From the NCBI GenBank assembly GCA_946406115.1, contig OX291553.1:1307001-1371000 (forward strand): a stretch of 64,000 nt of DNA, in the 5' to 3' direction. This DNA comes from Apoda limacodes (taxonomy: Eukaryota; Arthropoda; Insecta; Lepidoptera; Limacodidae). Position 1 is the first letter of the stretch. Every line of letters starts with the position of its first letter. The notes beneath the pieces were generated by a model. It ran no database searches. It had not been told where the DNA came from and saw only the letters and a list, made by a program, of their open reading frames with translations. Position numbers and translations under genes: made by a program. Below, one piece after another: positions 8,958 to 62,974 of the stretch.

Positions 8958-8978
8958 TTGTGTCTTTGTAGGGTTGAA

Positions 8979-37566: not shown

Positions 37567-38745
37567 AAGAGAGGTAGGGCACAGCGGGACGCGCTCGAAT
37601 AAGCAGTCGGAACCATTAAAGCGGGGAAAAGCGAGTACTTGCTCGAATGAGCAGCCAAACCATTTTTCTAACGGAGACGCAGATATCCTGCCCGGTCGAA
37701 ACATCATACCTACATTATTCCGGCTACAAATTCGAGCACAATTTAGTGAGTCGTGCCGATGTATGTATGTTTGTCCCGGAGAATATCTGCTGTCGCTCCC
37801 TTCATAGCCTTGAAGACAGAGATCTGTCGATAGTGTGGGTGCGCGTAGATCATGGTGGCTACAATCATATCTATGCGTGCCTATATAGGTCTCGTAGCGA
37901 TGACACGGACGTAGCTCGACTCTTTACACACCTGAGTTTGATGACTGACAAAGTTCTAGAGCAATATCTCACAGCAGAACTAGTAATTTTGGGAGACTTC
38001 AACACCCACCATCGTGAGTTGCTCAGTTTTCGAACCAATAACTACGCAGAGATATCTGCTCATGAATTTGCTCTGACCTATGGATTCTCTCAGCTGGTAC
38101 TTTCTCCAACGAGAATACCAGATATAGAAAACCATACGAGCTCCTTACTGGATTTTCTGCTGACTACACGTCCGGACGGATATTCCGTCTCAATGGATGC
38201 GCATCTTGGCTCCTCGGACCACTGTCTCGTTCAGACTCAAGTGTCATGCACACAACCCGATCCAGCTGGGCCAACTAATTGGCGTTGTGAGTGGCATTAT
38301 AAGTCGGCAGACTGGGATGGATTGCGAAAATTTTATGCATCGTACCCGTGGAGGCAGCTCTGCTTTAGCTCAGAAGACCCTGACGTCTCCGCAGCCGCAG
38401 TCACTGAAACAATCCTCGCCGGTATGGAATGTTTTATTCCTAACCCGCAAGTAGCTGCCAGCGTCAAAAAAACGACCGTGGTTCAGTAAGTCTTGCAGAG
38501 AAGCTAAAATTCTGAAAGAAACTGCCTAAATGAGGCTTGGACCATGGCTCGTAATTATAAGGATCCGAATATTTCTGAGTTAAAAATGCTTCCTCAAGGT
38601 TCAGTAAAAAAGTAACTGCCAGAACACTAGGCAATTTCCGTCTTCATTGAAGACTGCGAATGTGCACCCAGTGCCCAATAAGGGCGATAAATCAGATCCA
38701 TCGAATTGCAGGCCTATCGATATTACCTCTTTCCTATCAAATGCA
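37567..38745 (+). mobile_element. LINE-A copy 5: 5' UTR, endonuclease, scrap of RT, 3'-truncated
   Basis: It starts AAGAGAGGTAGGGCACAG (5' terminus of the family). The 5' UTR is internally deleted so that it jumps from GAGCAGCC to the endonuclease (ATTTTTCTAACGGAGACGC). The 280-residue frame 37647-38489 carries FLTETQISCPVETSYLHYSG, CMFVPENICCRSLHSLEDRD, VILGDFNTHHRELLSFRTNN and LGSSDHCLVQTQ, the full apurinic-type endonuclease. After 38490 it decays, jumps near 38620 to RT (PVPNKGDKSDPSNC) and ends near 38740. Confidence 0.9.
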
Positions 38746-44835: not shown

Positions 44836-45317
44836 ATGGCATGTTAAGCATGAATCAGTGTTTTGTGTCGAAAAAGTAACTAGTAGAGTAAAATCAAAAG
44901 AACTTACTAAGTCGAATAAAGTTTATTTTTGTGATGAGTTTGCTAGTTTGCTAGGTAGTCAGTCAACATTGAAATCTCCATTATGGCAGCGATCTTATTT
45001 TCTTTCGTCAAAGAGTTCAAAATAGTTTAGGAATTCGTCTTAACTTGTTACGTTTGATCTGTAGATACAAACAATTATGGCATGTTAAGCATGAATCAGT
45101 GTTTTGTGTCGAAAAAGTAACTAGTAGAGTAAAATCAAAAGAACTTACTAAGTCGAATAAAGTTTATTTTTGTGATGAGTTTGCTAGTTTGCTAGGTAGT
45201 CAGTCAACATTGAAATCTCCATTATGGCAGCGATCTTATTTTCTTTCGTCAAAGAGTTCAAAATAGTTTAGGAATTCGTCTTAACTTGTTACGTTTGATC
45301 TGTAGATACAAACAATT
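44836..45317. repeat. 241-bp tandem duplication, copies essentially identical
   Basis: ATGGCATGTTAAGCATGAAT starts at 44836 and again at 45077. The copies appear identical across GTCGAAAAAGTAACTAGTAG, GGCAGCGATCTTATTTTC and TGTTACGTTTGATCTGTAG, ending ACAAACAATTAT. Lack of divergence implies a recent event or an assembly artefact. Confidence 0.95.
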
Positions 45318-45900
45318 ATCACTTTTAACTTTTATTTCAAACATGAAATTTCACATATGTGTTCCTTAGAGATTTTGTTTAGGTCTGGACGTTTTTTGTA
45401 CAGCAAGTTATTTTTATTGCCTCCGTGTTTTACTTGCGTTCTACAAAAACAAAAAGCTAGGTGAAATTATGATAAAGAAATATTTTGAATTTAATGATGT
45501 TTAAGCCAGTTTTCTGTGACGCATTGTACTTGACACTGTAATTCATCGTTCAGTAGAAGTTCAAGGTGTTGTATTTTGCGATTCAAACTTCTTACATTTT
45601 GATAGCAGACTGTTAAGTTATTGGTCTGTTCGGGTTCTTTATGTGAGTTGATTTTCTACAGCGGGTTCTCTTTTCTTTCGATATAATAGAAAGGGCTGCC
45701 ATTGGGTTATGTTTACATGTATAGGCCAAGCAGAGGGGCCCAAAATGTGTTCATAAACAGATTTAAAAGAAATGTAGTTACCATGTTTTGATAGGATTTT
45801 CTCCACTACGTAGTCAGCTTCTCGAATAGTTTTCATGTGTTGTACGATGGTTTTAGCAGTCGATTTTCGTTAAAATAGCGTAATGTACGTACTTTAATAA

Positions 45901-46080
45901 ATCTAATCCTTCTTAGTTCGTATTTGTTGCAGAATCTGTTATTATCACGCTTTTTGGCTTGTTTTTTCTCTTCTTTACAGTAGTCCAATCATTTTTAGAG
46001 TCTTTTGTTGATTGTTTTTGGAAAATTGGTGTTTGAATTGTAGAGTTTTGCTTGGATATACTTCCAAATTTTATGTTATT
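45901..46080 (-). pseudogene. LINE-D ORF1-like basic C-terminus
   Basis: A minus-strand open stretch with KQSTKDSKNDWTTVKKRKNK, then PKSVIITDSATNTN and a stop. A lysine-rich DWTTV-K-KR-K segment is usual for nucleic-acid-binding ORF1/Gag-like proteins of LINEs. It is cut at its upstream side by the Polinton end at 46081. Confidence 0.45.
46075..46080. other. Left target-site duplication of the Polinton
   Basis: GTTATT directly precedes the left terminus. GTTGTT directly follows the right terminus (62969-62974). Five of six bases agree. Polintons are known to duplicate 6 bp. Confidence 0.75.
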
Positions 46081-46245
46081 AGTAGGTGTTTATTGGGCAT
46101 TCTGGCTCACTTTCCGCAGCGAAGATGCTGGCGCACATTTTGGAATTGATTACGTGCATCTGCGCTGCGGAAAGTGAGCCAGAATGCCCAATAAACATTT
46201 TGGAATTGATTATTAAGTTTTCAATTTGGGTGATGTAAACGACAC
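46081..46245 (+). repeat. Left terminal inverted repeat with a foldback duplication
   Basis: The first 32 bp match the right end exactly. Arms 46088-46121 and 46163-46196 (34 nt each) are perfect inverted copies around a 41-nt loop. ACATTTTGGAATTGATTA occurs at both 46135 and 46195. Removing the extra block restores continuity with the right end (CATTTTGGAATCGATTA, then TTTTCAGTTTGGGTGA), so this end has gained about 60-80 bp. Confidence 0.92.
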
Positions 46246-46499
46246 GAAATAGTTTTTTAAATAACCACAGCGAATGATTAGTTTACTAAAAACTTACCAA
46301 TAAATATTTTTCATCACTTCCACTTGCACACTATTACACTAGATTTTGTTTAAATCCTTAACCCATATTTATGACATTTAGATAAACATTTTGTAATGAG
46401 TTTAATTCTTGAAAATATGATGTTTACTGCAATGACAAAGGAAAGCATGTGCTCCGAGCAGATCGGTCTCCTTTTTTACAGGAAAGAAAAAAGTTTTAA

Positions 46500-47075
46500 C
46501 ATAGATTAGATACAGACCAACCTTCTTCTAGCTCTATGCACAAGATTTTCACGTCATATTTTTCAAAACAAGGCATCAGGAAAGGATAACGTACTTGACT
46601 CCGCCAACCTACTAGCTCTATGCACAAGGCGTTTAGGCCGTATCGTTCCGTATTAGGATATAGGAGAGAAAATATGTTTTGACACAGATATAGACGAACC
46701 TTCTACTAGCTCTATGCACAAGGCATTTAGACCATATTTTTCAAAACAAGGCAACAGGAAAGGATAACGTACTTGACATGACCAACCTTCTTCTAGCTCT
46801 ATGCACAAGGTGTAAAGGCCGTATCGTTCTGTATTAGGATATAGGAGAGAAAATATGTTTTGACACAGATACAGACGAACCTTCTAATAGCTCTATGCAC
46901 AAGGCGTTTAGGCCATATTTTTAAAAACAAAGCAACAGGAAAGGATAACGTACTTGACATCGCCAACCTTCTTCTAGCTCTATGCACAAGATGTTTAGGC
47001 CGTATCGTTTCGTTTTAGGATACAGGGAGGGATAACTTAACACACTTATCTTATCTAACTCTAAGCACATGATTT
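46500..47075. repeat. Subterminal tandem array, ~181-bp units made of two half-units
   Basis: The core CTAGCTCTATGCACAAG (or one-base variants) starts at about 46528, 46612, 46706, 46793, 46887 and 46974, with a diverged copy near 47055. Alternate copies are exactly 181 bp apart (46612-46793-46974 and 46706-46887). Each core is preceded by a GACCAACCTTCTT-type segment and followed by GG(C/T)(A/G)TTTAGGCC(A/G)TAT. One inverted copy with the same context (TTGTGCATAGAGCTAG, then AAGGTTGGTC) lies at 62838-62864 near the right end. Confidence 0.9.
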
Positions 47076-48024
47076 CTAAAGTTAAAACTTTCGTTATTGC
47101 AGTAAACGATATGATCTATTGTTACACAGGCTTCTTCTAAACAAAATTAAACTCCATAACTCCATAACTCCATAATTTTATCTACATATCTTAAATCAGA
47201 TTCAAATGTTTTTTACTAAACATGTAATTTTACATATAATAAAATGACGTACGCACATATAAGAAAAAATGTTTGAAATGAAAACTGTTCTCATAAATCA
47301 GGCTTTTCACCATTAACACTGTAGATCAAACATCTTAGTCGGTCAGCGAAAACAAAAGATACTTTCGTTACACAGTGTTTTTAAAATCAAACTTACGTTT
47401 AGTTTTTTACAAAAGGGTTGGCAAATAGGACAAGTCTAAAAATATCTTAAACCATAATTATCTTCAATTGTAAAAATATAAATGAAGAACGCAGAAAGAT
47501 TTTTTTTAGAATGAAAGTTATGCTGTTATACATAATGATTGTTTAAGTTTTAATTTTTTTTAATCTAATGAAACCTTAAGCCTGAATGTATGTAAAATTT
47601 CACTAATAATTTTGATCAACACTCGATTTCATAAAAGTTTTCGTTGTAAGTCCCCAGTTTTATTGCATATCCAACAAAACGTCACTGCTGTGCAGCGTAA
47701 ACCAAGTAGCTGCCTATTCTACAAATCTTATGGAAAGAAACATTAATGCGGCTTTTCTTTGTGTTACGATATCTAAGCGGCATAATCTGCTCTGGGTTCC
47801 TTACGTACCTGTTTAATTATTTATGGTTTAGTTTAGTTATTTCTAGTGGGTACTATATAGAGCAAAATAATATGATTAAGAAAACAAACATAAACTTTTA
47901 AGCGAGCCTTTTGTGGTTTAAAAATTAAAAAACTATAAGTAATTTAGGTAATTAAAAATATATATTCGGGTAGGTAACTCGTTTTAACATTAAAGCACAA
48001 ATTTTTTATTTTACTAGTTTTACC
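47076..48024. other. Polinton left arm, no gene seen
   Basis: AT-rich and free of long frames. Confidence 0.45.
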
Positions 48025-48158
48025 TTTTTTTTTTTTTTTTTTTGATGGTAAGCGGTCACCGTAGCCTATGGACGCTTGCAACACCAGGGGTATCACTTGC
48101 GCGTTGCCGACCCTTCAGAAATCTAATAACTTCTTTCTTGAAGAACTCCATACTGTAG

Positions 48159-49575
48159 TCAGAATACCTTGGCAGGGAGCTCATTCCACAACTTAAGCGT
48201 TCGCGGGAGGAAGTTTCTCTGAAACCGCACTGTACGCGACCATTTAGGTTCTAAAGTGTGAGAATGGATTCCCTGCCGATGGCGAGCGGTGCGATGGTAG
48301 AAAGTAGCCGTGGGCATCATTTCGAACAATTCCTTAGAACACAACCCATTGTACAAGCGGTAGAACACACACAGTGAGGCAAAGTCTTTCTTCAGACTTA
48401 AGGGCTCGATACCGCAAGTGAGTTTGGAATCGTCGACAATTCTCACAGCCCGTCGTTGAACCGAGTCAAAAGGGCCAAGCTGGTATCCGGGTGCACCTGC
48501 CCAGAGATGACAGCAGTACTCCATATGGGGCCGAACTTGCGACTTGTAAAGTAACAACCTTTGCCCCGACGTGAAGCACTGCTTCGCTCTGTTGAGTACA
48601 CCAAGTTTTTTGGACGCCAGCTTCACCTTATCTCATAAATGATCTCGGAACTGAACATCGCTGGAGATGTCGACACCAAGGATCCCAATGCTCTTGGAGA
48701 TGGAGAGGGGAGTGTTCTGGAATTGTGGGACTACAGTGAATGGAGTTTTCTTAGCGGTGAACGCGCAAACTTGTGTCTTTGTAGGGTTGAATCGGACCAA
48801 GTTTACCCGTCCCCAGTCACAGACCTAGGACAGTGTGGTCTCGATTTGAGACACAAGTTCTCCGCGGTTTTCCTCCACAACGGAACGAGGGATGTTTGCA
48901 CGACCCGTGTAAAAAGCGTCTCCAGTACTGTCATCTGCATAGCAATGTATGTTGTTCATGTCCAACATGTCATTGATATGCAGTAGAAACAGCGTGGGAG
49001 ACAGCACAGAGCCTTGCGGGACACCAGCATTAATGTCCATGCTATCAGAGCAACTACCGTCAACTACGGCTCGTATGCGTCTGCCGGACAAAAAGCTAGC
49101 CACTCATTTGTACAAACCCTCGGGCACTCCGTAAGATGGCAACTTCGATAGAAGACCGCGGTGCCAGACCCGATCGAACGCCTTCGCTATGTCCAGGCTA
49201 CATGCCAATGCCTCCCCCTGACTCTCAATGGCTAGTGCCCATCGGTGTGTGAGATACACTAGAAGGTCACCAGTCGAGCGACCGTGGCGAAAGCCATATT
49301 GACGGTCACTGACCAGATCGTGTACTTCTAGGTATCTTAGAAGCTGTGTGTTGATCACACGCTCCATCACCTTAGAGAGGAGAGAGGTAATAGCGATAGG
49401 CCTGTAATTCGATCTGATCTATCGCCCTTTTTGGGCACCGGGTGCACATTCGCAGTCTTCCATGAAGACGGAAATTGCCTAGTGTGGTAGGAAAGCGCGA
49501 AGAAGCGCGTGAGTACAGGACATAACTCAGGAGCACACTGCTTAAGCACCACTGCTGGTATACCGTCTGGCCCAC
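48159..49575 (-). pseudogene. LINE-A reverse transcriptase and C-terminus, lightly damaged
   Basis: Frames 49552-49367 (APELCPVLTRFFALSYHTRQ, VHPVPKKGDRSD), 49370-49104 (YGFRHGRSTGDLLVYLTHRW, CSLDIAKAFDRVWHRG with the motif A aspartate intact), 49103-48825 (NAGVPQGSVLSPTLFLLHIN, HCYADDSTGD with both catalytic aspartates) and 48626-48159 (LLLYKSQVRPHMEYCCHLWA, LWNELPAKVF) are consecutive. A few small lesions separate them: a 4-bp loss at the SDPSNY site, a stop in place of a tryptophan codon near 49105, and a change near 48825-48640. Confidence 0.9.
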
Positions 49576-49615
49576 TCGACTTATGAACGTCTAGAGAAAG
49601 TAACGCCCTCCTGAC

Positions 49616-50989
49616 CTACCGCTGCGTTATGGAGATTACCGGCGTGGTCTTACCGCACCACGGTATAGTAGGTGGTACAGCGCCTTCATCGTTCATATTC
49701 GAGTTCGAGGCAAAGAGACTGCCCAGTAGATCGGCTTTATCTTTAGCACTATGGGCCAAGTCACCATCGGTCTTTCGCAGTATTGGTAACGACGACTGGC
49801 AGAAGTTCCCTTCGGCAGCTTTGGCAAGCGACCAGAAAGCACGACTCCCAGAAGGATAGCTCGCAAGTCGCCCACCTATTTTGCCGATGAATTGGAATTT
49901 TGCTCTGGCAGTTGCTTTCTTACTGAACCTCGAGGCAGCATTTAATTTGCGTTTTAACTCAGAAATATTCGGATCCTTATTAAAACGAGCCGTGGTCCAA
50001 GCCTCATATGCATTTTGCTTAAGAATTTTAGCTTTTCTGCAACACCTATTAAACCACGGTCGTTTTTTGACGCCGGCAGCTACTCGCGGGTTAGGAATAT
50101 AGCATTCCATACCAGCAAGGATTGTCTCAGTGACTGCGGCTGCGCAGACGTCAGGATCTTCTGAGTTAAAGCAGATCTGCCTCCACGGGTACGATGCGTA
50201 AAATTCTCGCAATCCATCCCAGTCTGCCGACTTATAGTGCCACACACGACGCCAATTAGTTGGCCCAGAAGGATCAGTTTGTGTGCATGACACTTGAGTC
50301 CGAACGAGACAGTGGTCCGAGGAGCCAAGAGGCGCATCCACTGAGACGGAGTATCCGTCCGGACGAGTAGTCAGCAGAAGGTCCAGTAAGGAGCTCGTAT
50401 GTTCCTCTATATCTGGTATTCTCGTTGGAGAAAGTACCAGCTGAGAGAATCCATAGGTCAGAGCAAATTCATGAGCAGATATCCCAGCATAGTTATTGGT
50501 TCGAGAACTGAGCAACTCGCGATGGTGGGCGTTAAAGTCTCCCAAAATAACTAGTTCTGCTGTGGGATATTGCTCTAGAACTTTGTCAGTCGTCAAACTC
50601 AGGTGCGTGAAGGGTCGAGTTACGTCCGTGTCACCGCTATGAGACCTGTATAGGCACGCATAGATACGAGTGTGGCCGCCGTAATCTACGCGCACCCACA
50701 ATATCGACAGGTCCCTGTCTCCAAGGCTATGAAGGCGGCGACAGCAGATATCCTCCCGGACGAACATACATACACCGGCACGACTCACGAAATTGTGCTC
50801 AAGTTTGTAACCGGGATAATGAAGGTATGATGTATCGGCCGGGCAGGATATCTGCGTCTCCGTTAGAAAAAGAATGGTCGGCTGCGCAGTCTCCAGATTT
50901 GCGTGAATACCCCTAATGTTGCAAAAGTCCACATTAAATGTGGATGGAGCGGCCGCTGAATAAACTCTTTTTCTTTTATTTCTTGCCAT
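49616..50989 (-). CDS. LINE-A endonuclease domain, longest open frame (457 aa)
   Basis: It starts MARNKRKRVYSAAAPSTFNV, then DFCNIRGIHANLETAQPTIL. The apurinic-type endonuclease (about residues 18-230) shows FLTETQISCPADTSYLHYPG, the E of FLTET, VILGDFNAHHRELL (G-D-F-N) and LGSSDHCLVRTQ (S-D-H), i.e. all the visible catalytic motifs for nicking the target. A linker follows (about 240-450) with KKRPWFNRCCRKAKILKQNA and YPSGSRAFWSLAKAAEGNF. The frame stops at ISITQR where RT should continue. The start ATG follows the 5' UTR directly. Known elements have one polyprotein; here it is cut. Confidence 0.9.
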   Translation of the reverse strand: MARNKRKRVYSAAAPSTFNVDFCNIRGIHANLETAQPTILFLTETQISCPADTSYLHYPGYKLEHNFVSRAGVCMFVREDICCRRLHSLGDRDLSILWVRVDYGGHTRIYACLYRSHSGDTDVTRPFTHLSLTTDKVLEQYPTAELVILGDFNAHHRELLSSRTNNYAGISAHEFALTYGFSQLVLSPTRIPDIEEHTSSLLDLLLTTRPDGYSVSVDAPLGSSDHCLVRTQVSCTQTDPSGPTNWRRVWHYKSADWDGLREFYASYPWRQICFNSEDPDVCAAAVTETILAGMECYIPNPRVAAGVKKRPWFNRCCRKAKILKQNAYEAWTTARFNKDPNISELKRKLNAASRFSKKATARAKFQFIGKIGGRLASYPSGSRAFWSLAKAAEGNFCQSSLPILRKTDGDLAHSAKDKADLLGSLFASNSNMNDEGAVPPTIPWCGKTTPVISITQR

Positions 50990-51603
50990 ATTTTTTTTTT
51001 TTTTTTTGAAAGGGTTATTTAGATTAAAGATGAGGATTCACTGCACTGACAGCTTAGAGGACAAAAGGTGCGGTACTAGAACTGCCCAAGCTCGCCACAG
51101 ATGATACGGTTGCTGGCACGGCGGGCGGAAGGGCCCCTGATCCCCCTCTGTTGTAGTAGCCGGGTCCACTCCGGTCTCCTTCTCCGGCACGAATACCACT
51201 TCAGATACTTTACACAGGCTGGCGAATCAGCCTCCCAGGGCGGAGATTAAGTGATCCCTGGGTTCGGGATCCCGTTCAACCTGCGGGCGGCCAGCGGTCA
51301 GCCGTTTCATCAGGTCTCCCTGACCGCCGAACCAGCTCGCCGCGTCTACGCCGAGCATGACAGCAACAAAAACCGCCGGTCCTCCGCTGTCCGCGCAGCG
51401 AATCCTCAAAGAGCTCTGGCAACCTTACTCACCGCCAGGAACACAACACTACTCAATGTTAGTGTTATTATGGCCGCGGTTTTCTGTAAGGTGGAGGTAC
51501 TTGCCCAGTTCAGGCTGCTCATTCGAGCAAGTACTCGCTATTCCCTGCTTTAGTTGTTCGGGTGGCTTATTCGAGCGAGTACTTGCAGTGCCCTACCTCT
51601 CTT

Positions 51604-52739
51604 CAGAACTTTTTTTATTTTTCCTTACAAACATAGATGAGGTATGCCAAAACAATTAATTATAACATATAAGTAATTCATATTCGCGGACACTGAGCAG
51701 AACCATTCTTATATTCAACATTGAACCCCAAACTAAATAGCGGCATATTCTTTGTACTTCATATTTCTGTTATTAATGTAAAATAAAATAGTAATTAAAT
51801 ATATTTATTCTTCAATCTTTTCTATGGGAATGCCGTTTTTGCTGACTTGAAACAATTTAAGGGGTAGAAAACCTAATTGGTATATTATAAATTTAGATGA
51901 CTTAACAATATATTTGTACTAAACATGTATAACAGTAAGCGTCTAAAACTTGAATAATCTTTATTTAGTATGAACGTAAATACCTGTTTATAATAATATT
52001 AGTTTGGTTAACCTACACTTCATAGTACTTTATTGTAGGTTAAACTATAATTTATGTTACTTGACTCTTGGTCTTTTCTTTTGGAGTCTAGTCTGCACTC
52101 ACTCGGTGTCAGCTGATTACGTAGGGTATATGTTTTTAATTTCTTCTGATTATAGTTAACTGTAAGAAAAGGTTGCAGATCTCTGACTTTTCCCTTTTTA
52201 GGCCTTATTTTCCGGTTAAAATATACACAATTTCCGACACTCTTGGGTGTGAATAAGTGCTGCTAAACTACCAAGCTGTGAAGCTGCTATTGGGGAACTT
52301 CTAATTTTCAAGCTGTGGATCAAAGCATCAAAAATCATGTTCGTAAGTTTTAACTTTGAAGTAATCTGTGTGTTTGTTTAATTATTTATATTAAATTAAA
52401 CATTTAAACTTAGTTCATAACAGTTAAATTTACCCTTATTTTAATCTGTAATGTTAATTTTATAACAGCCTTTTATTTAACTCTGTGAAATCCATCTTGT
52501 TTTGAGATGATTATGATCTACATTACTCTTTGGCTTAACGTTCTGAACCATGAAAGAAAAGACTAACGATGTAAAGCGGCAGCGTAGGTCAAAATCATCT
52601 CGAAATCATATGATTTGTTCGTATTTGAATAAAGGCCCTGTTCTTGTTACTTTTCTAAATAATGCGAATCAATTTTAGGTAAATACGCCTATAAATATAA
52701 TGAGAAGTCAAGATCTTTCTAACTACTATATTGGTACAG
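51604..52739. other. Polinton left arm, mostly non-coding
   Basis: Contains ATGTTC|GTAAGT at 52338-52349 (a start followed by a splice-donor-like site) and a 43-codon frame beginning MKEKTNDVKRQRRSKSSRN at 52552. Either could be an upstream exon of the 52740-53909 gene, but neither joins it in frame in a way I can defend. Confidence 0.4.
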
Positions 52740-53909
52740 GTCGGAGTTTAAATTCAAACAGAAGAGGAAGGTTGGAAAAGACGGAACCACTTGCTTTTCC
52801 TTTTCCGATTCAGACGACGGCGAGACTAGGTTAGTTTAATATGGAAAACTCAATTATTTTTGTTGAAAAATGTAATTTACATAAATCTTTTTATAACTCC
52901 AAAAGCTGACCTCAGAATTTCTAGTTTTGTCATATCTCTCATACAACACACCCTCCATAATCCGAATCTAGATACTTTAGGACACTTGATATAAACACTC
53001 CTACCAACTGTACCTACCTATTTAATCCGAACTTATCTTACTTGCCTTGTTGACTGCACACGTTTTTTTTTTTTGTATTATGTTCGGATTAAAGACGTAG
53101 TTAGTAAAAGTGTTTATATCAAGTGTCCAAAGTATCTAGATTCGGATTGTTGAAGGTGTGTTGTAAGAGATTGATTTTCTCTTACGCTTTTAATAGTTTC
53201 ATTATTTATTAAGTTTACTGTATTCAAATTAAAGACCAAACCATAATGATTTAAGAGGATAGTAAAGCCATTGTTTTTATAACATTAATATTTATTTTTA
53301 AACATAAATTAGTACTGTAAATAAGAATACTGAGGCCTATTTATTACTGGTAGTATTAAGAATACTGTGCGTGCAGTACATAATTTCTTTATGGAAATAA
53401 ATATTGACTTCTTATATTTTTGATGCACAGGATAGAAGCAAGTTCTGTTAAGGCAGAGCCAAAAGTAAAAAAACCGCGCAAGAAAGTGGAAGGGAAGGCG
53501 CGAGGAGCTGTGACTGCATCGCTGAGCGCTCATTGTCCGCAATCATCACGAAAACGGTCCTCGAGCTACAGACTCCTGTCTTCGGACAGTGAAGACGAAC
53601 TTGAAGCTTCTCGGTCTGCTCGTGCTGCCGTTTCAGCAGGGGCTTACGTCGTCTCTGACCCGGCGAGTGGCGGATGGTGTGCTGCGTCGGACCGCGGAAC
53701 TCGACGGCGATACTTTCATCGAGCTGAGAGTTTACAACACCAAAGACGTTATCGCTGCTACTGGGTGGAAAGAGCGTTTGGAGAAAGCCCAAGTTGCGTT
53801 ACGCTTTCAAGCGTCGTCATCCGATTTGGAGGAACTAAGAATTTTTCTCAGAAAAGCAAAGCTAAAGTTTGTCCAAGAAGGCAAGTTTTACTCTAATAAA
53901 AAAGAATGA
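52740..53909 (+). pseudogene. Two-exon gene of the Polinton: acidic/basic nuclear-type protein, frameshifted
   Basis: Exon A 52740-52829 follows an acceptor (TTGGTACAG|G) and ends at a donor (ACTAG|GTTAGT). It reads SEFKFKQKRKVGKDGTTC, then FSFSDSDDGET. Exon B starts at 53431 after TGATGCACAG and keeps the frame (IEASSVKAEPKVKKPRKKVE, then SSDSEDELEASRSARAAVSA). Near 53655-53680 a one-base shift is needed to continue with RVADGVLRRTAELDGDTFIE, LRVYNTKDVIAATGWKERLE and LEELRIFLRKAKLKF, stop at 53909. A serine/acid-rich basic N-terminus plus a compact C-terminal domain suggests a DNA-binding regulator. The FIELRVY...W-E-L segment loosely recalls PC4-type single-strand DNA-binding domains (weak). 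The intron holds a MITE. Exon B is much more GC-rich than its surroundings. The upstream start is not identified. Confidence 0.5.
52934..53172. mobile_element. Foldback MITE inside the presumed intron
   Basis: The left arm (ATACAACACACC, then AATCCGAATCTAGATACTTT and GACACTTGATATAAACACT) is inverted in the right arm (AGTGTTTATATCAAGTGTCC, AAGTATCTAGATTCGGATT, GGTGTGTTGTAA). Arms are about 65-70 bp, with a second internal pair TTAATCCGAAC/GTTCGGATTAA. About 239 bp and non-coding. Confidence 0.85.
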
Positions 53910-54295
53910 AACTTTCTGTGTATAATTTTTTTATTAGTAATAATAAAAATAAATAAATAGGTAGATACTGTACTTAGTTTTTTTATCATACAAATAATTT
54001 TAGTAACATATGAAGTATAATTTTAGTAACATATTAAGTATAATTTTAGTAACATATGAATATGAAATTATACATTTTGATTACATATAATACCAGATAA
54101 ATTATTAATTTTTTCCTGGGATAAAAAGTAGATAACCTAAATTAGTCATTTTATTAACAACTTTCTTAATGTGCTTAAAAGACGAATACTTTTTTAAATT
54201 TGGTTTTTTTTTGTTTATAGAAATTTAGATTTTCCGACAGTAAATATATGATCGCATTGACAGCTCCTAAGAGCCATACTACTGATCTATGTAAA
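53910..54295. other. Short AT-rich spacer with a small tandem repeat
   Basis: TAATTTTAGTAACATAT(G/T)AAG repeats three times at about 53995-54060. Confidence 0.6.
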
Positions 54296-55420
54296 TATGA
54301 AGAGTAAAAAGTTTTTTGTACTGTTTGCGAACAAGATGTTTCGAGTAGGATATTTTCTGCCCATCTTCGTAGTAATATTCATAAGAATAATAGCGCTATT
54401 GAGATCAATGAATGTGTAGAAAAATTAGTTCAGAATTCAGAAACTGTATTTCTAGTTACAGGGTGCATTGCCTCACTAGCAATGCCTCGAGGTCGTTATC
54501 ATGTAACAGCTCTGCAAATTCGTATCTGCTTTCTCCTCACACGTTCTTATCTCGAATACCTTTGCGTCGTGCTGTACGACAGCTTATCGATGTTAAATAA
54601 GCACAACATGTTAATTTAAAAGTAATTTTTGGAGAGTTCATTTTACCAAAAAATGACTATATTTAAATTAAATCTTTTGCAACAGGAAATGTGATTATTC
54701 ATCAAAATTACAATTTTAACCACTTGTATTCTGATCTTGTGTCAAAAATAAACAAAAAAATTAGCGAATTCCAAGAGAATGACAGGGGGTGGTCATTGTT
54801 AAAAAGCCTGTATTTATAAATTAATTTAAATCGGTATTCACCTTTAAGAGCTTCGAGTTTTATTGAATTACCAAAATATGTAAAAAATAAAAAAGCTTGT
54901 ATTAATGTTAAAAATAACGATAATTTTTGTTTTTTGTGGAATATAATTACAGTATTGTTCCTAGCTGAATCAAACGCAGACAAAACTACGCCTTATCCTC
55001 ACTTCAAAGATGTACTTAAAACCAAAAATATGGCATTTCCGGCGACATTCTCGGAAATTAAAATATTTGAAAAAAATAATCACAGAATTAGTGTCAACGT
55101 TTACGGCTTGAATTCCAATACTAAAATAATTGGACCATTGTATAAAACAACACATATAAAAAAGCGTCATGTCAATTTTCTATTCTTGCAAAATAAGTCC
55201 CGTAGTCATTACTGTCTAATTAAAAACTTGGAACGATTGGTTAGATCCCAAACTACTTAACATCATGGCACAAAGGCTCAATTTTACAGTTTACGCATTT
55301 TGAGCGTATGCAAGATTTGCCTTTGTCATTTATGCGGATTTCGAATGTTTTTTAGAACCATGTCAAACATATCAAACTTTTAACCCTAGAAAGATAGTCT
55401 GCGTAAATTTGACGCATGTG
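54296..55420 (+). pseudogene. Protein-primed family-B DNA polymerase, N-terminal part only
   Basis: This is the N-terminal region and first exonuclease motif of a Polinton-type PolB, the enzyme that copies the linear element. It begins with a zinc-finger-like segment VFCTVCEQDVSSRIFSAHLR, SNIHKN (C-x2-C...H-x5-H). A conserved block in broken frames follows (SKINKKISEFQEND at about 54740). The open frame 54934-55260 reads FCFLWNIITVLFLAES just before it and FSEIKIFEKNNHRISVNVYG, then SHYCLIKNLERLVRSQ. After a frame change, 55322-55351 reads FVIYADFECF, the Exo I motif (D-x-E). The palm motifs (D-x-x-S-L-Y-P, D-T-D) were not found, so about two thirds of the enzyme is gone. It runs opposite to the capsid genes, as is common in such elements. 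Confidence 0.85.
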
Positions 55421-56525
55421 TGTTCAAAATATTGCTCTGTCTTTGTAAATAGTGCGAATCCGTCGCTATGCGTTTAGGACATCTCACTCGTCGCTGGGTG
55501 CTTCCGTCAGGCTTACGTGTCGTTCAAATAAGTGTCACAGATTTTGAATTATAACGACCTCGTAAGTCAAAATGATGCATGATTATCTTTTAAGTGACTT
55601 TTGAGCTAAATGGATTATTGTTTTTTTTTCATCTAATTTTACAAAGTATTTACAAAAAGATAACAAAGAATAAAATATAATAATTAGTATTATTGATTAG
55701 AAATTTGGATAAGGATAAGGTCCGTAGGTATCCTATCAGCTGTTTTAAAAAGTGTAACAAGGTTACCTGCGACAAACACCAATATTGAAGTAGAAGCCCA
55801 CGAAAAACGACGTGCAGAGGAACATAGTAGAAACTTTTATAGATGAGAAAAGGTAAAAATCATATGTATTGGGAAATAAGATTTCTTTAATTTGTGGTGC
55901 TCTTAGTACATTTTGTCATTGTGTAGAATTAAGATTAAACTAATTACTTAAGCATGACTATGTAATAGTTAGTCATTTTGTACATAATATAAAAAATAAT
56001 TTAGCTTGTTATAATACCCTAACTGTCAGTCAAATTGAAATGGTACTTCATTTTTATAAAAGTAAATCTAACGTTTTAGCTGTGCAAGAACTTTTTCTTT
56101 TTGGTGGTTCATATTTTTATAACTATTTGACTTGTTGTTAATTTTTTTTGGATTTTGTGTTTTTTATAATTTTGTTATTATTGAAAATGTTGTTTTATTA
56201 ATCTAAAGCCAACTTTATTGTAAACCTTTAGATAAAAAATGTTGGTAACTATAATTAGCATTTGTGACAGACAGACAAACAAAAAAACTTTAACTATTTT
56301 ATTACGAACGTTAGAAAAGAAAATTTATGCTGATTCAGATACATTTCGATATTCAAGATGTCTTCGGTGTCGGCAGCCGGCCATACGATATTTAACATAC
56401 ATGAACCAACAAGTTTTTATTTGAAACCTGTATGACGCAAATAGATTGTTGCATTATATCAAAAAATAAATCACATAATTGAAAAGTGTCGATTCGTTAA
56501 CACGTCTTTATTATAATTTTAAAAT
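55421..56525. other. Decayed region after PolB, nothing recognised
   Basis: Should hold the rest of PolB if it survives. Short pieces such as TNIEVEAHEKRRAEEHSRNF (about 55767-55840) can be read, but no polymerase motif. A 61-residue frame at 56239-56424 is unassigned. Confidence 0.45.
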
Positions 56526-56997
56526 ATGTCTAATTACCAAAAGGCAAATTATATCGGTTTTTCAGTAGGCAAAGTTTTAAAGTATGTGGTCAAAATCGAA
56601 ATTAGTCAATTAACAGAACTACCAAACGTTGTGGAAAGCAGAACAATTGTAAAAACAAGTTATCATGCAGAAAGTGAAAATGACCCAGTGATGAATTCTG
56701 TACTGCATTCCCTTTTCCTTATTTCGACAGAGTTGGGAAAACAAACTGAGAAAATTTAATGCGCAGAGGTATGTACAAACTTTCCTATTTTTGCTTTTAC
56801 TTCTAAAATTAACAGAAAATCTAATTATTTTCCTTGTCTTTCAGATTTACTTGAGGCAAAGAATATCTGTAGCAGTAGCAGAGGAAGAGGTTTCCTCCGT
56901 GGAGATTTCATTCAAAACTTATTTGTCTTATTTTTTTTGTATTGTAAATAAACGATTTTGTCATGCACAAACATTTAGATATGTAATGTCTCTTTAG
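56526..56997 (+). CDS. Unknown small Polinton gene, possibly two exons
   Basis: The ATG at 56526 opens MSNYQKANYIGFSVGKVLKY, then VVKIEISQLTELPNVVESRT, 77 residues ending at a TAA at 56757-56759. Immediately after, GCAGAG|GTATGTAC (about 56769) and TGTCTTTCAG|A (about 56845) look like a donor and acceptor bounding a 75-nt intron. The second block codes SSSRGRGFLRGDF in one frame and AVAEEEVSSVEISFKTY in another. Poly-A-signal-like AATAAA motifs follow at 56946 and after 57000. The stop lies before the donor, so splicing would be in the 3' UTR or the frame is broken. Not recognised; no function proposed. It is the last rightward gene before the convergent capsid genes. Confidence 0.4.
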
Positions 56998-57179
56998 GAA
57001 TAGAAATAAAATAAATAATGATTTATTGTTATAACATTTATTGAATTTTCTTAAATAAAATACTTAAACTTAGTTCAGCAAAATACTTATACTTAGTTAA
57101 TATATTTTAATAGTTAATACTTATATTATACATTTGTACACAAATGAAAAAACTGTTAACTAAACTATTATATTTTAAA

Positions 57180-58154
57180 CTAATTCAAGTATTTTTTGGA
57201 ATCTAGTGTATTGTTCATATAATTAAGCAAATTTATTCTCATCAAATCGAACATTAAGAGCCTCATAGGGAAAATACACTGAATTCAAAAATACTTTCCC
57301 TTCTCTTATATTGCAGTGATCGAAGTGTGACATGTCTTTTTTTGATTTATTTTTTCGGTCTGTCTGAAATGCAATAACAGCATATCTGTTTTTCTATTTG
57401 TGAAGACATTTTAATTACCCATGTATGTTTTATTGTTTTTGGTAATAAGGGATATTCATACAAGTCCCAGTTTCGTAATAACAAGTTGATTGAACGATCT
57501 TTTTCTAGATATTTTAATAGATTTAGTTTTTCTCGATCGGAAACTTTTACGTGTGAAACACGCCAAACAATTTTTTTAAGTATCATATCATCTATTACTT
57601 CTCCAGTGTTTAGTTTTATCGCGTTCAGATTAGTATTGCTGCGTAAAAGTATTAGCTCATATCTACAATTCATTATTATTTTATTATAATCCTCAGAAAA
57701 TCCAAGCACTTTGTTCAGTGGTATAGATACTGCAAAATTCCCTGATCTTGTATTTTTTGTTCCATCTATATCCCACCCTCATGCTTTCGAAATTTTTGAT
57801 TCATTTTCATTCATACACAAAATAATTTTATTGTTGTTGTTATACATTTTTAATTCTATCTATTTCAACTCCGTTAAGTTCATAGCGAACATCTTGAAAT
57901 AGAAATAAAGTGGGGTTGTTAGTAAAATTAACGCTAGTTGCAACATCTTTTAGATCTCTTTTTTTAACGATGACCATTCCTTTTAGGTATATTGTACTAG
58001 CTGATGGCAATACGTACAAGTCTTGTTGGTTGATAGGTATTCTTATTCCATCATTTTTATTAAAAGTAGTGATATATGGCTTATACGAATGAATTTCCAT
58101 GCTTTCTATAGTATTATCAAATACAATAGGTTGCGCTACGTTTAATACACTCAT
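57180..58154 (-). pseudogene. Major capsid protein (double jelly-roll type), broken in three frames
   Basis: The hexon-like protein that would form the shell. It starts at 58154 (MSVLNVAQPIVFDNTIESME) and runs to a stop at 57840 with SYKPYITTFNKNDGIRIPIN, QQDLYVLPSASTIYLKGMVI and LFLFQDVRYELNGVEIDRIK. It resumes in a second frame (57709-57347: LGFSEDYNKIIMNCRYELIL, LKKIVWRVSHVKVSDREKLN, LLLRNWDLYEYPLLPKTIKH) and a third (57333-57223: MSHFDHCNIREGKVFLNSVY, FPYEALNVRFDENKFA), then a stop. About 325 codons are traceable; capsid proteins of this group are usually over 400 residues, so the C-terminus is lost. Recognition rests on remembered family resemblance (QQDL..LPS...L, F.D.RYELNG.EID, NWDLYE.PLL). 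Confidence 0.82.
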
Positions 58155-58318
58155 TTTAGTAATCCAATTAATTTTAAAAAGTCTTTATTTTCAACACTTA
58201 ATTTTTTTTTTTAAGTTAGTAGATGTTAGTGATACAGGTGCTCTTTTGCGAATTACCTGTATCTTTCTAAGCTTCTTTGGTCGTGAAAAAGAATTTATAT
58301 TAATTTGACGAAAGTCTA

Positions 58319-58987
58319 TCATTTTTTCTTTAGATGTAGGTACAGTAGTACCTCTTCTCCCCGAAAATTAACTAACTTGTTCTGTGAATCTAAAATTTTT
58401 ATATTTACACTACTGATAGTTTTTTGATTAATCGGAAAATATATTATATTCTTTGGTACCTCAATAATTCTATATCCAGGCGGCACAATAGGGTCAAATT
58501 CATGGATTATGTGGCTTGGAATTCCATTAATGAAGGATCCACAGACAATATCACATTCAACTCGGACAACAGTGGTAGAAAGAATATTGACTTGGATCTG
58601 TGATTCATGAAATTTATTTTTTTGTAATGTTTTTTTATTGTATCCGAGAATACTCCCAATAGAATTTTCTTTTTCAAAATGAATGTTAGAGCAACAAATT
58701 ACAGTACGTAAAGTATTATTGTTACAAGTTAAACTAAAGGTGCTGCTTCTAATGTTTTTCCTTATATAGTAACAAATGTCCTGTAGTTCATAAGATCCTT
58801 CAGGTATTTCAATCACTTCATTATCACCATAATGAAATTTATTATTTTTACTTTCAACATTTGGAATAGAGTTAAAAGTAGAAAGGTATAAAAGACCACA
58901 TTCGTAATCTCCGTCTAACTGTAGAGCAGGAGAATAACAAGTATTTAAGCTTGATGTGAACCCAGATATTTACAGCGTGAAAGACAT
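58319..58987 (-). pseudogene. Minor capsid/penton-like protein, one premature stop
   Basis: Downstream of a start at 58987, codon 6 is TAA (58970-58972). The frame then stays open to the natural end: LNTCYSPALQLDGDYECGLL, YLSTFNSIPNVESKNN, EIPEGSYELQDICYYIRKNI, NSIGSILGYNKKTLQKN and IVPPGYRIIEVPKNIIYFPI, with a C-terminus LVNFRGEEVLLYLHLKKK. About 222 residues in all, the size and layout of the single-jelly-roll vertex protein of Polinton/adintovirus elements (ISSVNIKILDSQNKLVNFRG near the end). It lies between protease and major capsid genes, as expected. Only the N-terminal stop disables it. A downstream in-frame ATG is not obvious, so the 166-residue open part would need a non-standard start. 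Confidence 0.82.
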
Positions 58988-59025
58988 TATTAAAATGGTT
59001 TATTTTATTGAATTATCTTAATTTA

Positions 59026-59394
59026 TTATCTTGAATGCCAAAAATTGTTCAAATATTGTATACACAAGTGACCACAATTAACAGTATTAAAGTTCTGATA
59101 TACATTGTAATTGTAATAAACATTAGACAAATTTAAATAGGACAGTAACTCTTGGGGTGGTCTTAGATTTCCAAAACTATTGAAGTACTCACAGTAATTG
59201 TTAATTTTTGTATAGGCTACCCAGTGCGTTCCAGGATTCTTAGAGTTATCTAAATTGACAATCGCACACTCAATATCTTTAGGTTTTTTTGGTAAAGCAT
59301 CTTACATGAATACTTCTCGAAAATACGGTATATCATTAGTGTGCTTTAAAATATCTACATTCGTTAAAGCACGTCTAGGTAGCCTTCTAGTTAG
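59026..59394 (-). pseudogene. Adenain-type cysteine protease, premature stop
   Basis: Too broken for a long open frame, but one frame reads NKLTRRLPRRALTNVDILKH, PYFREVFM, a TAA at 59302-59304, then DALPKKPKDIECAIVNLDNS, GTHWVAYTKINN, YFNSFGNLRPPQELLSYL, VYQNFNTVNCGHLCIQYLNN and a stop at 59026-59028. GTHWVAY holds the catalytic histidine, YFNSFG the acid-region motif (asparagine where aspartate is usual) and NCGHLC the nucleophilic cysteine. This is the maturation protease family shared by adenoviruses, Polintons and virophages. The 5' end overlaps the 3' end of the PLA2 gene, and no start ATG is visible. Confidence 0.85.
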
Positions 59395-60112
59395 TTTGTT
59401 TTGCTGGTTTTAAACATAATCCGTTACCTTTATAAGGTTTAATGTAGAGACCTTTTCCTAACGCAATAGATTCCATCATTTTGTTATAACGCTGTGACTC
59501 TTCAAGGTTTTGTTTTGCTGATTATGCTATTCACTGCTTTAGCAATACCTGCAGCTCCTCCAGCTAAAGACCCTAATACAGATAAGCCAGCCAAAATTGG
59601 TATAAGTGGTAGAATCCCTCCAGTTTTTGGTATTAGTATAAGACGGGATAAGCAAACATTTTTATTTTAAAATAATGTTTTTGCAGTCAAGTAGGTAATC
59701 TTTATAGCATTATTGTTATCTTTAGGCTTGCGGTTTTTCATATAATTTCGGATTTTAGACACGACTGACTTAAAAGATTTAACTCCAGCACCATTTTTTA
59801 ATTTAGTTTTCATAACTTTGCTTACGAGCCAAGACGCTAATTTTTCTCCGGTTCTAGTATTTTTTGACTTCATTCTTTGTTTTGCCATATTCAGAAGCCA
59901 AAGTCAGCTTTATGACGATCTTCTAAATTACGATGTTCGGAATAAGCTATATCGTGACGCTTACAAGCCTCGTCTAATTCGTTTATCCCTTTGTCACCTC
60001 GAGCCAATCTTTCTTGTAGTCTTGTACCAGAACCACAATAATTATATCCTGGTAAATGAAGTTCAAATGGTAAATTGCTTATTATATTATTAACAAGTCC
60101 TCCACCGTTCAT
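59387..60112 (-). pseudogene. Phospholipase A2-domain virion protein with hydrophobic C-terminal region, several frameshifts
   Basis: It starts at 60112. Residues 20-60 read LPGYNYCGSGTRLQERLARG and DEACKRHDIAYSEH: a calcium-loop motif (Y-x-G-x-G) and the catalytic HD pair (residues 53-54), as in parvovirus-type PLA2 domains that permeabilise membranes during entry. A frame break after HKADFGF leads to 59888-59667 (RTGEKLASWLVSKVMKTKLK, FKSVVSKIRNYMKNRKPK). Another break leads to LIPKTGGILPLIPILAGLSV, LGSLAGGAAGIAKAVNS (about 59630-59530). A third leads to SQRYNKMMESIALGKGLYIK, PYKGNGLCLKPAKQTN and a TAG at 59387-59389. The whole looks like one ~240-residue gene. The glycine/alanine-rich hydrophobic stretch could insert in membranes (inference). 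Confidence 0.82.
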
Positions 60113-60183
60113 TACTTAATTTAAAATGAATACATGGTTGAATATCTTACAATTGTAAAGTATTTATAAGTTAAAAATAAACA
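60113..60183. other. Intergenic gap between PLA2 and integrase genes
   Basis: Short AT-rich gap with no feature seen. Confidence 0.4.
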
Positions 60184-61088
60184 CTATACAATAAACATTT
60201 TGTTAATCCAACTATTTTCCTTTTCATTGAGTCCTAACCATTTTACAAATATTTTATTTCCTTTCTTTCTTATCATTATTTCAATTAAATAAATGTTTGG
60301 ATGTTTAGTTTTTTGCAACTCTTGTTCGTAAAAGGAACCGAGTATTATTTGATTTCTTTGATCATGAATGTGATAAGTTACTGGGTAAGTATTATTAACT
60401 TTTGTTATGGTGAATAGTTCAGAAGACCAGTTAGGTGTATACCCCTTTATGAAATTTTCATTATATAATTGCTAATCCGAACACAGTCACCTACTTTTAA
60501 TTTTGATTTTCTTAAGTACTGAGGTGTTTCATTCCCCTTTTTGTTATTCATAACGACGGTTTGGTTATCATATGTTACATTTATTGGTTTAAATTTAGTG
60601 GTTCGATGGACAGTATCATTATATGTTGACAAAGCATCGTTCAAAGGTGATCCGATCCATTTGTTATTTCCAATTAAAGTAAGTGTTCTTATAAATCTTT
60701 CAACAATTGACGCCTTTTTCACAAAAAATGTAGAATAGTGATTTATATTAAAAGTTGTTATTATTTTATTAAACACTTCATTGTAAAATTCTTTTCCCAT
60801 ATCTGTCTGAAGGTTAATAGGAATTTGACCACAATCCAAAATTTTTTGAAAAGCGTTTCCTACGTCACGTTTTGTTTTCGTTTTCAGAGGAACTCCCCAC
60901 GCGAATTTTGAAAAGCAGTCTATAACAACTAAAATATATTTAAAACCTTTGTTCACTTTTTCCGTTTTCTGCATGTCAATTAAATCAGCTTGCCATAAAT
61001 CATCAATCACTTTCAATATTACTGCCCTACGAATGAAGTGTTTTCTAGCTGGTTTGTGAAGTTCACCAACTATGTCTTGTCTGTTCAT
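60184..61088 (-). pseudogene. Retrovirus-like DDE integrase with C-terminal chromodomain, one frameshift
   Basis: It starts MNRQDIVGELHKPARKHFIR at 61088. The catalytic core shows D35 (LWQADLIDM), D96 (INLQTDMGKEF) and E130 (KKASIVERF), so all three metal ligands are present. After E130 the usual basic segment is shortened (RTLTLIGNNKWIGSPLN). YNDTVHRTTKFKPINV and SKLKVGDCVRISNY follow. A frame change at about 60465 leads to GYTPNWSSELFTITKVNNTY, IILGSFYEQELQKT and a chromodomain (YLIEIMIRKKGNKIFVKWLG, then NSWINK), stop at 60184-60186. A C-terminal chromodomain is typical of Polinton integrases. It would join the element to the 6-bp target. No N-terminal HHCC zinc domain is visible. It starts 2 bp after the upstream gene ends. 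Confidence 0.9.
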
Positions 61089-61090
61089 AA

Positions 61091-61420
61091 TTATTTAGGT
61101 GCGGTTTTCTGTGATACAACATTTTTTAATTCTGATTTAATATCCAGCAACTGTTTTTTTAAAGTTTGAATCAGGCTTTTTATAGCATTTATTTCGACCA
61201 GGAAAGATAGTTTTCCACAATATTCTTTTAGTACATTATCAACATACTTCTTATTGACGGCTTCGTCAGGTAGCTGAGGTGTTTTGAGTCCTTTTATACT
61301 TGCTGATATTAAGTTTAAATCTCCATAAATAGACTTAAGAAATACTTTGTCAGTAATATCGAAAACTTCTGACAAACGCAATCTTTTATGCACGTAATGA
61401 CCAAACTTTTCAACGTTCAT
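61091..61420 (-). CDS. Small intact Polinton protein with an LPDEAVNKKYVD motif, coiled-coil end
   Basis: An open 109-residue frame: MNVEKFGHYVHKRLRLSEVF, DITDKVFLKSIYGDLNLISA, SIKGLKTPQLPDEAVNKKYV, then a heptad-like C-terminal helix (EINAIKSLIQTLKKQLLDIK, SELKNVVSQ). The D-A-V-N-K-x-Y-V-D string is found in many phage and virus fibre or attachment proteins, where it precedes a trimerising helix. A virion fibre or oligomerising role is inferred from that and from its place between an early-end hypothetical and the integrase. It is undamaged, unlike its neighbours. Confidence 0.55.
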   Translation of the reverse strand: MNVEKFGHYVHKRLRLSEVFDITDKVFLKSIYGDLNLISASIKGLKTPQLPDEAVNKKYVDNVLKEYCGKLSFLVEINAIKSLIQTLKKQLLDIKSELKNVVSQKTAPK

Positions 61421-61536
61421 TGTTCAATAAATGTATCTCTAAATGGTTTGATGACAACTGAATGTTAATATGAAGTTATCTGTATTGTATTTGAATAAAT
61501 CGTTAAGAATGCATGTAATAGGTAATTTTTCATATT

Positions 61537-62560
61537 TTATTTGTTAATAATACCAGCTTCTTGCAACTCCTCTACGATAGATATTATTTCATTGTCTAAT
61601 CCACTGTTTCCTGCATCACGAGAAGATATTAAAAGTTTTAGTCTTTCAACTAACTCATTAGGGTCATCCCAATACATATGATCAACAATTTTATTATATT
61701 TTTTTAAAATTGGTAACCCAGACCCTTGAGTAAGACTTTCGGTGCTTGTACATTGCTAAGATAACTTGAAAAGTGGTTTGATAATATTTAAGTACTTGCT
61801 TCCTTTATTACTTTTAATTGGTTTCTTAGGGTTGAAGTCACGCCTATGTGCATTTGTAATAGTTAAAATCTGTTTGTAACTGTTTAGGTCACTATTTTAG
61901 TGATTGTTTCTAAATCTTGTATTCTTTTGAATAATAATTCCATTAGACCTTCAGTTTTTTGTAAGGCTTTCCAGAAACTGAAATTGAATTTTCTGTTTGG
62001 ACAATTCGAGAATAATCTATCATCAGTTTACCACGTTCATTTCTAACACCAAATGGAATATCTTCCAATACTTTTACAGTTCGTTCTGAAGGTGGTGACC
62101 AATTATGTTGTGGACTTGAAATAGATTCAATTGTTTTGAATGAAGCGTCACTTGAAATGTTGGTTTTTTTATTATTTGTATCGCTCATACTTTTCGAATA
62201 ATCTTCATAGATATTGTCTTCATAATCATTAAAGTTCTTAAGAGTTTTATCAACTTTTTTACACTGTTCATCGGAATCTATTTCATATTCACTTCCATCC
62301 TGAAGATCAAAATCAAATTCATGTATTTTTTTCATATATTTTGCTTTTTTCCCTGGGATTACGTCTTCATTGTAATTAGGTTTGATATTTTGTGTTGCAT
62401 TTCTTGATACCATTTTATGTAGTGGATCCGTTAAAGGTTTGAACACAGATTTAAGGACTTTATCATTTTCAGTTTGGATACTACGCAACTGCCTTACTTT
62501 TTTCTTAACAACGCTAGCTGATTTAATTATCTGTTTTTTGATATTTACTTGCGAATCCAT
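61537..62560 (-). pseudogene. Charged Polinton hypothetical protein, C-terminal half broken
   Basis: It opens MDSQVNIKKQIIKSASVVKK, KVRQLRSIQTENDKVLKSVF. The first 205 residues are open: a basic start, an acidic centre (EFDFDLQDGSEYEIDSDEQC), DIPFGVRNERGKLMIDYSRI and SVSGKPYKKLKV. After a stop at 61943 the sequence is still readable in other frames: ITNAHRRDFNPKKPIKSNKG, SKYLNIIKPLF and, near 61740-61540, GLPILKKYNKIVDHMYWDDP, NELVERLKLLISSRDAGNSG, EIISIVEELQEAGI. Proteins with this WDDPNELV-RL-LL end are common hypothetical genes of insect Polinton-type elements (recalled, not searched). No catalytic motif; function unknown. It is the first gene from the right end. Confidence 0.65.
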
Positions 62561-62879
62561 TTTTCACAATAAGCTTTACCAATGTTATAGACAACACTAA
62601 ACACATATCGATATGACTACATATTTATATTAATTTGAGAGACATTGACACACACAAGACTACCGAAAGATAAAAGAAAGTTAAGATTTTTATAATTTAT
62701 AAATAACATATTATTTGTCCAACAGTTGTTGTAGGGTAAAACATTTTTCTACTAGAAGAGAACAGAACGATTTGCATATATTTGTAAGTTTATCCCTTCT
62801 TGTCTCGTAAAACGGAATGATGCTTCCCAAAATACCTTGTGCATAGAGCTAGAAAAAGGTTGGTCGGTATCAAATACGT
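62561..62879. other. Polinton right subterminal region
   Basis: Non-coding. It holds the single right-end copy of the subterminal core (62838-62864) and is the likely promoter side of the minus-strand gene row. Confidence 0.5.
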
Positions 62880-62968
62880 TAATCTCTTTACATTCACCCA
62901 AACTGAAAATTTTACGTAATCGATTCCAAAATGTTGAAGTGAGCCAGAATGCCCAATAAACACCTACT
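62880..62968 (-). repeat. Right terminal inverted repeat
   Basis: The inverse complement of the left terminus, exact over 62937-62968 and similar to about 62885 (GGAATCGATTACGTAAAA, TTTTCAGTTTGGGTGAATG). It lacks the foldback block of the left end. Confidence 0.92.
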
Positions 62969-62974
62969 GTTGTT
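62969..62974. other. Right target-site duplication of the Polinton
   Basis: GTTGTT, against GTTATT at 46075-46080. Confidence 0.75.

Follow-up and report, generated by a model that had tools for sequence, protein, structure and literature searches.

A decayed copy of a recently spread Maverick/Polinton family of adintovirus type in the moth Apoda limacodes

Introduction

Is a virus-like span in moth DNA the relic of a single ancient insertion, or one member of a family that spread recently? The question was raised by a 64,000-nucleotide stretch of the genome of Apoda limacodes (Lepidoptera, Limacodidae; GenBank assembly GCA_946406115.1, contig OX291553.1, forward-strand positions 1,307,001 to 1,371,000; hereafter the window, whose own numbering is used below), in which a preliminary description had recognized a full-span, adintovirus-like Polinton/Maverick fossil at 46,081 to 62,968. 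The termini, flanking hexamers and gene content bore out this assignment and the placing of the ends, and we hold with high confidence that the span is an inserted Maverick/Polinton copy of adintovirus type whose family has recently spread, the window copy itself having decayed. The word fossil suits this broken copy but not the family, which is multicopy and, judged from sequence identities, young.

Results

Ends of the window copy

The two 32-bp inverted termini, which begin with AG, are identical, as had been stated (Table 1). A search of the window allowing up to three mismatches found only these two matches, and none was found in 100 shuffles. The hexamers flanking them, described earlier as a near-duplicated target, are present and share five of six bases. 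Because equal similarity arises in 1.1% of local hexamer pairs drawn at random, this pair is weak evidence by itself and other copies were needed.

Copies, target duplications and empty sites in the genome

When the 800-Mb assembly of 31 contigs was searched with the exact 32-base terminus, as the preliminary description had proposed, 144 places were found (65 forward, 79 reverse), and none with the reversed terminus as a control query. Pairing within the first 100 of these places gave at least 28 adjacent forward/reverse pairs less than 40 kb apart, namely the window copy, one 280-bp pair and 26 other full-span copies; 44 places among the 100 stayed unpaired, and 44 further places lie outside them. 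For comparison, both ends of the 26 full-span pairs and of the 280-bp pair were retrieved together with 300 bp of flanking sequence, a set that is biased toward young copies because it was chosen by exact termini. Twenty of the 26 elements are 17,188–17,563 bp long, and the remaining spans measure 15.0, 15.4, 18.5, 20.8, 21.2 and 33.9 kb. The target hexamers agree at all six bases in 25 copies and at five in one, and each of the 26 copies has a hexamer sequence of its own. The 6-bp target duplication that characterizes Mavericks/Polintons is thus seen in the other copies, with five of six bases in the window copy, and the terminal inverted repeats begin with AG and end with CT, as is likewise characteristic.

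Empty sites lacking a single hexamer had been named as an observation that would speak against an insertion. The host flanks of each of the 26 copies, joined with a single hexamer, were set against the window and the sequences L001–L008 and L062–L064. Six joined flanks matched, across the junction, an empty site with a single hexamer that was exact or one base off. Five of these sites are copies of a long interspersed nuclear element (LINE) family common in the window: those of C2:21.7 (98.3%, no gap), C19:5.0 (98.8% in the window and 99.2% in L007, no gap), C3:0.38 (90.5%), C18:19.2 (88.4%) and C12:30.3 (82.8%, 11 gap columns). The sixth, that of C10:5.44, lies in L007 and adjoins its LINE-matching stretch (83.7%, 15 gap columns). 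Hence five of the 26 copies inserted within members of this LINE family elsewhere in the genome, and the sixth probably did so too. The joined flank of C2:7.42 matched repeats within itself, that of C7:23.2 gave a 79% match over the junction, and the match of C17:22.1 was nearly confined to one side; the remaining 17 joined flanks had no informative counterpart in the compared sequences.

Two terminus pairs differ from the rest in form. The 33.9-kb pair (G000:C7:23207400-23241315) has the perfect hexamer CACAGA and a left end without subterminal units, and is probably an element carrying a large insertion. The 280-bp structure L059 (G000:C20:16317925-16318804) has the 32-bp terminus at each end with terminal units between, perfect 78-nt arms that include the terminus, and host flanks that are inverted, not repeated; it is either a miniature element in palindromic form or an end that was rearranged.

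Fold-back ends and a long/short polarity

The two ends of the element are unequal. In 25 of the 26 other copies, at least four subterminal units with a spacing of 87/94 bp lie at one end (the long end) and exactly one at the other (the short end), the exception being the 33.9-kb pair. A local expansion in the window copy was considered as the origin of its long left array and was ruled out by this shared layout. The ATPase gene adjoins the short end; PolB is on the long-end side both in the window copy and in the two others of which part of PolB was read.

An inverted copy of the terminus was found within 400 bp at all 52 ends of the 26 other copies; 42 ends have their first such copy at position 69, and a 45-bp terminal stem with at most two mismatches can pair at 41 of the 52. 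Each end carries 1–5 such copies, and their number is unequal between the two ends in 18 of the 26 elements. The inverted copy is a potential hairpin. As single-stranded DNA, the left end of the window copy has a predicted fold of −53.4 kcal/mol (z −13). At its right end, the inverted terminus copy was not found.

Age and intactness of the family

The inner short ends of the 26 copies have a median best-match identity of 98.59% over 325 pairs (minimum 91.8%); 62 pairs reach at least 99.5%, and 11 are identical over the best match. Left and right terminal repeats within single copies are mostly 98–100% identical (gaps ignored) over 112–259 bp; lower values were 90.6, 94.6, 96.5 and 97.5%. The alignment of one copy began away from the terminus. 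The right end of the window copy has a median identity of 91.35% to the 26, and its compared stretches are 92.3–97.0% identical to single other copies. Being only about 91–97% like relatives that resemble one another so closely, the window copy is a poor reference, not the usable one described earlier. These identities mark it as an older member, or one from an older branch, of a recently expanded family, and its insertion probably predates that of most relatives. The copy was also considered as a possible mosaic when its right end seemed 80% identical; this was ruled out, as the global alignment had crossed the ATPase gap and local identities are ~91–97%.

An old, isolated fossil, that is, one ancient insertion of a family long dead, is what the heavily broken window copy might suggest by itself, with a LINE and a piggyBac-like end inside it and its genes missing or broken. 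The 144 exact termini, the prevalence of ~17.3-kb copies with perfect hexamers and the close likeness of the inner short ends contradict this, and we consider such a history very improbable: for the family it is refuted, and it holds for the window copy only.

As to the coding capacity of the relatives, Pox_A32 was matched in the ATPase-side frame of all three copies scanned, in two above the cut-off (E = 2.4e-6 and 3e-6) and in one just below it (9.4e-5). An ATPase frame of at least 200 aa is found in 22 of the 26 short ends, although five of these frames run into the end of the retrieved piece. In one internal piece of another copy the integrase, PLA2 and protease frames are open. PolB was broken in the copy where it was read. 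The ratio of nonsynonymous to synonymous differences (pN/pS) in the ATPase was 0.78 with ~5 differences per pair, a value uninformative on selection; the comparison omitted 37 of 190 pairs that were out of register and six of the 26 short ends (frame <225 aa or no full core).

Genes of the window copy

The preliminary description placed integrase, PolB, protease, PLA2, penton and capsid genes within 16.9 kb. In Pfam profile scans of pieces with curated cut-offs, and by the further comparisons below, all but one of these were found; for PolB, nothing beyond an N-terminal fragment and the Exo I motif was recognized. The virion gene span is likewise incomplete, as the PolB core, the ATPase and the capsid C-terminus are missing, and the 16.9 kb include the ~3.6-kb LINE.

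The integrase matches rve at E = 3.2e-11 and is 55% identical to P0056, named S. frugiperda INT; another copy has an open 310-aa frame. Its chromodomain gave Chromo matches below the cut-off (E = 3.6e-4 in the window, 2e-4 in another copy), and PF00385 is annotated for 6 of the 120 relatives listed. The PLA2 domain was matched at E = 4.8e-12. For the protease, Peptidase_C5 stayed below the cut-off both in the window (E = 9e-4, 19.4 bits vs 21.3) and in another copy (E = 3.9e-3), and its place in the gene order agrees with the assignment. The major capsid protein gave a Pfam double-jelly-roll (DJR) match at E = 4e-35. The penton has no Pfam family, and its predicted fold matches the pentons of mavirus, Sputnik and adenovirus. 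Because its frame is nearly open, domestication was considered, and was ruled out by a premature stop.

The N-terminal piece of PolB has a weak OTU-like fold, and its two relatives bear no polymerase label. In another copy, the PolB stretch matched Endonuclease_7 below the cut-off (E = 1.3e-4) and was unmatched by PF03175 in the Pfam scan; two motifs in one copy, at offsets ~7580 and ~7905, we take to be PolB motifs B and C. The open reading frame (ORF) pieces near the right end probably correspond to the 'ORF2' of the Spodoptera frugiperda (Sf) Mavericks. An Rfam scan of the window gave no match. No confirmed relative came from IMG/VR when integrase, capsid, penton and PolB served as queries, in pieces or as alignments, from a 23-base terminus pattern, or from a scan of prokaryote genomes.

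Table 1 Features of the window copy and its borders (offsets are those of the other copies compared)
Feature	Position	Strand	Remarks
Left target hexamer GTTATT	46075–46080		5 of 6 bases equal to right
Left 32-bp terminus AGTAGG...	46081–46112	+	
Left-end fold-back	46087–46197		42-nt arms 46087–46128 / 46156–46197, 98% complementary
Long-end array, six subterminal units	46508–47040	+	87/94-bp spacing
Element DNA	47110–48038	+	92.3% like copy offset 1201–2123
Nested LINE, endonuclease and reverse transcriptase remains	48039–51605	−	~3.6 kb; T-run at 48025
Element DNA	51606–55268	+	92.6% like copy offset 2106–5721
PolB N-terminal piece, weak OTU-like fold	54820–55257	+	
Remnant with PolB Exo I motif (YADFE)	55331–55384	+	ends at TTAA
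Filler, no match in pieces read	55385–55873		~490 bases, starts at TTAA
Element DNA	55874–57195		93.8% like copy offset 8662–9997
Major capsid protein, double jelly roll	57226–58184	−	pieces 57843–58184, 57350–57778, 57226–57393, no single frame; without C-terminus
Penton (minor capsid)	58322–58987	−	88% identical to closest relative; one premature stop near start
Adenain-like protease, partial	59029–59301	−	
PLA2-domain 'CAP' protein	59670–60115	−	open pieces 59894–60115 (PLA2 match) and 59670–59903
Integrase, rve core and C-terminal chromodomain	60187–61088	−	short in-frame deletion and frameshift
ORF, function not assigned	61094–61423	−	
ORF pieces	61540–62563	−	61540–61755, 61946–62563
ATPase scar	62541–62609		both gap flanks seen vs copy C4:0.14
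Short-end single subterminal unit	62785–62890	−	
Right 32-bp terminus	62937–62968	−	
Right target hexamer GTTGTT	62969–62974		

Losses and insertions in the window copy

The window copy was compared piecewise with three separate stretches from three other copies. Copy L062 is uninterrupted at the site of the nested LINE. The PolB core, at copy offset ~5933–8661 (28 bases of which, between two pieces read, were unseen), is missing and filler stands in its place; nothing in the window copy matches the motif B/C stretch of another copy. The start of the filler, 55385–55620 at TTAA, is presumably a piggyBac-like end within the PolB gene beside the deletion. At the right edge of the next element stretch ~731 bp (offset 9998–10728) are lost, and with them the larger part of a 181-aa ORF and the C-terminal part of the capsid, which is present in another copy (DJR profile 215–315 of 316). 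Against C4:0.14 the match stops 477 and restarts 1232 from the terminus, and the ATPase frame of C4:0.14 occupies 481–1203; the A32-type ATPase is absent from the window copy. With these losses, as read from its sequence, the copy appears no longer able to move by itself.

A 234-bp imperfect palindrome at 52937–53170, inside the element, is shared with L062 and therefore belongs to the Maverick family. Copies of the LINE family lie in the window at 8218–10977, 33187–34005, 37567–38741, 42662–43834 and 48042–51609, with a longest match of 94.3% over 2.76 kb. Elsewhere in the window we observed a perfect 241-bp tandem duplication at 44836–45319, ~0.8 kb left of the element, protein remains at 5866–7683 and 31112–32772 that by eye resemble those of long-terminal-repeat retrotransposons, and short tandem arrays at 35338–35519 (18-bp unit) and 36653–36769 (8-bp unit).

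Discussion

Hexamers, termini, gene content and order, and sizes agree with known Mavericks, so the element adds a member to a known kind. The present data contribute an insect family that is young, multicopy and well defined, has empty sites and shows conserved unequal ends; the fold-back ends and the unequal layout are offered as new detail, with no claim that they are unpublished. The closest likeness is to the Sf Mavericks 1 and 2 (KY042018, KY042019), in which, in the part of PMC5803895 consulted, INT with a C-terminal chromodomain is followed on one strand by the PLA2 'CAP' and then the protease, as here. Sf Maverick 2 also has POLB on the opposite strand and the PLA2 'CAP' as a fourth small gene, and its gene content, order and sizes agree with ours: measured from stop to stop in single copies, INT, CAP, PRO and ATPase have 310, 257, 132 and 241 aa here and 310, 258, 133 and 228 in Table 2 of that paper. 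The words 'inverted', 'TIR' and 'TSD' are absent from its main text, whereas ends and copy number are described here, and where the consulted part of it reports no Maverick PY capsid homologue, the capsid here matches the Pfam DJR profile.

Vertebrate Mavericks, as surveyed in the consulted part of PMC8097293, likewise have 6-bp duplications, inverted repeats of variable length, a length of ~17 kb, and integrase/capsid/protease and PolB modules on different strands, facing the centre. They differ in their end motif, AGTAGT or AGAGAG, that is (AGT)2 or (AG)3, whereas AGTAGG here is one base off (AGT)2; in having the ATPase in the PolB module, whereas it lies here at the end away from PolB; and in that the section consulted does not name PLA2 among their genes. 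Adintoviruses, by the part of their definition in PMC11071296 that was consulted, share the chromodomain integrase and the capsid and penton genes, and their PolB has an N-terminal OTU-like domain, to which the weak OTU-like fold of the N-terminal piece may correspond. The present family differs in being integrated in many copies.

From this gene set a life cycle can be proposed. A protein-primed PolB, whose palm motifs are in another copy and not in the window, would copy the element DNA, and an A32-type ATPase might pack it into a shell whose double-jelly-roll capsid and penton proteins would be matured by the adenain-like protease. The PLA2 domain may act in entry. A retrovirus-like chromodomain integrase would join the AG...CT ends to host DNA, presumably making the 6-bp stagger itself. 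In the window copy, the loss of PolB core, ATPase and capsid C-terminus and the insertion of a LINE and a piggyBac-like element would have ended this cycle.

How the copies multiplied can be read in more than one way. Several independent germline infections by a free adintovirus, in place of spread within the genome, would be in keeping with the virion genes, among them those for the A32-type ATPase and the penton, and vertebrate Mavericks have been argued to be virus-like in the consulted part of PMC8097293; however, the present data do not separate re-infection from transposition, and the pairs of inner short ends identical over their best match fit either, so that we regard repeated infection as possible though doubtful. 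An insertion of a parvovirus- or bidnavirus-like agent can be given almost no weight. Such an agent would share the PLA2 domain and the fold-back ends, but the rve integrase, DJR capsid, penton, adenain-like protease, A32-type ATPase and 6-bp duplications are Maverick features, no NS1 family was among the Pfam matches of the scanned pieces, which cover part of the element only, and the capsid found is of the DJR type.

The Maverick/Polinton assignment leaves room for a bolder reading, which we consider unlikely: that this is a live or just-silenced endogenous insect adintovirus with hairpin-forming ends and a fixed long/short polarity. Its ends, with a terminal stem of ~45 bp and a 60-bp unit repeated 1–5 times, could then act as signals for initiation, repair or packaging in a mode of replication that departs from the simple adenovirus-like scheme.

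According to the abstract of PMC8097293, no Maverick particles have been seen, and 96% of the vertebrate Maverick loci in the survey of that paper, in the part consulted, are eroded. With its dozens of full-span insertions, its defined ends, its empty sites and ATPase frames that are mostly open, this young insect family would permit a direct test of whether Mavericks are still moving or leaving cells, and its fold-back ends and long/short polarity are concrete sequences for studying how such ends are copied and recognized.

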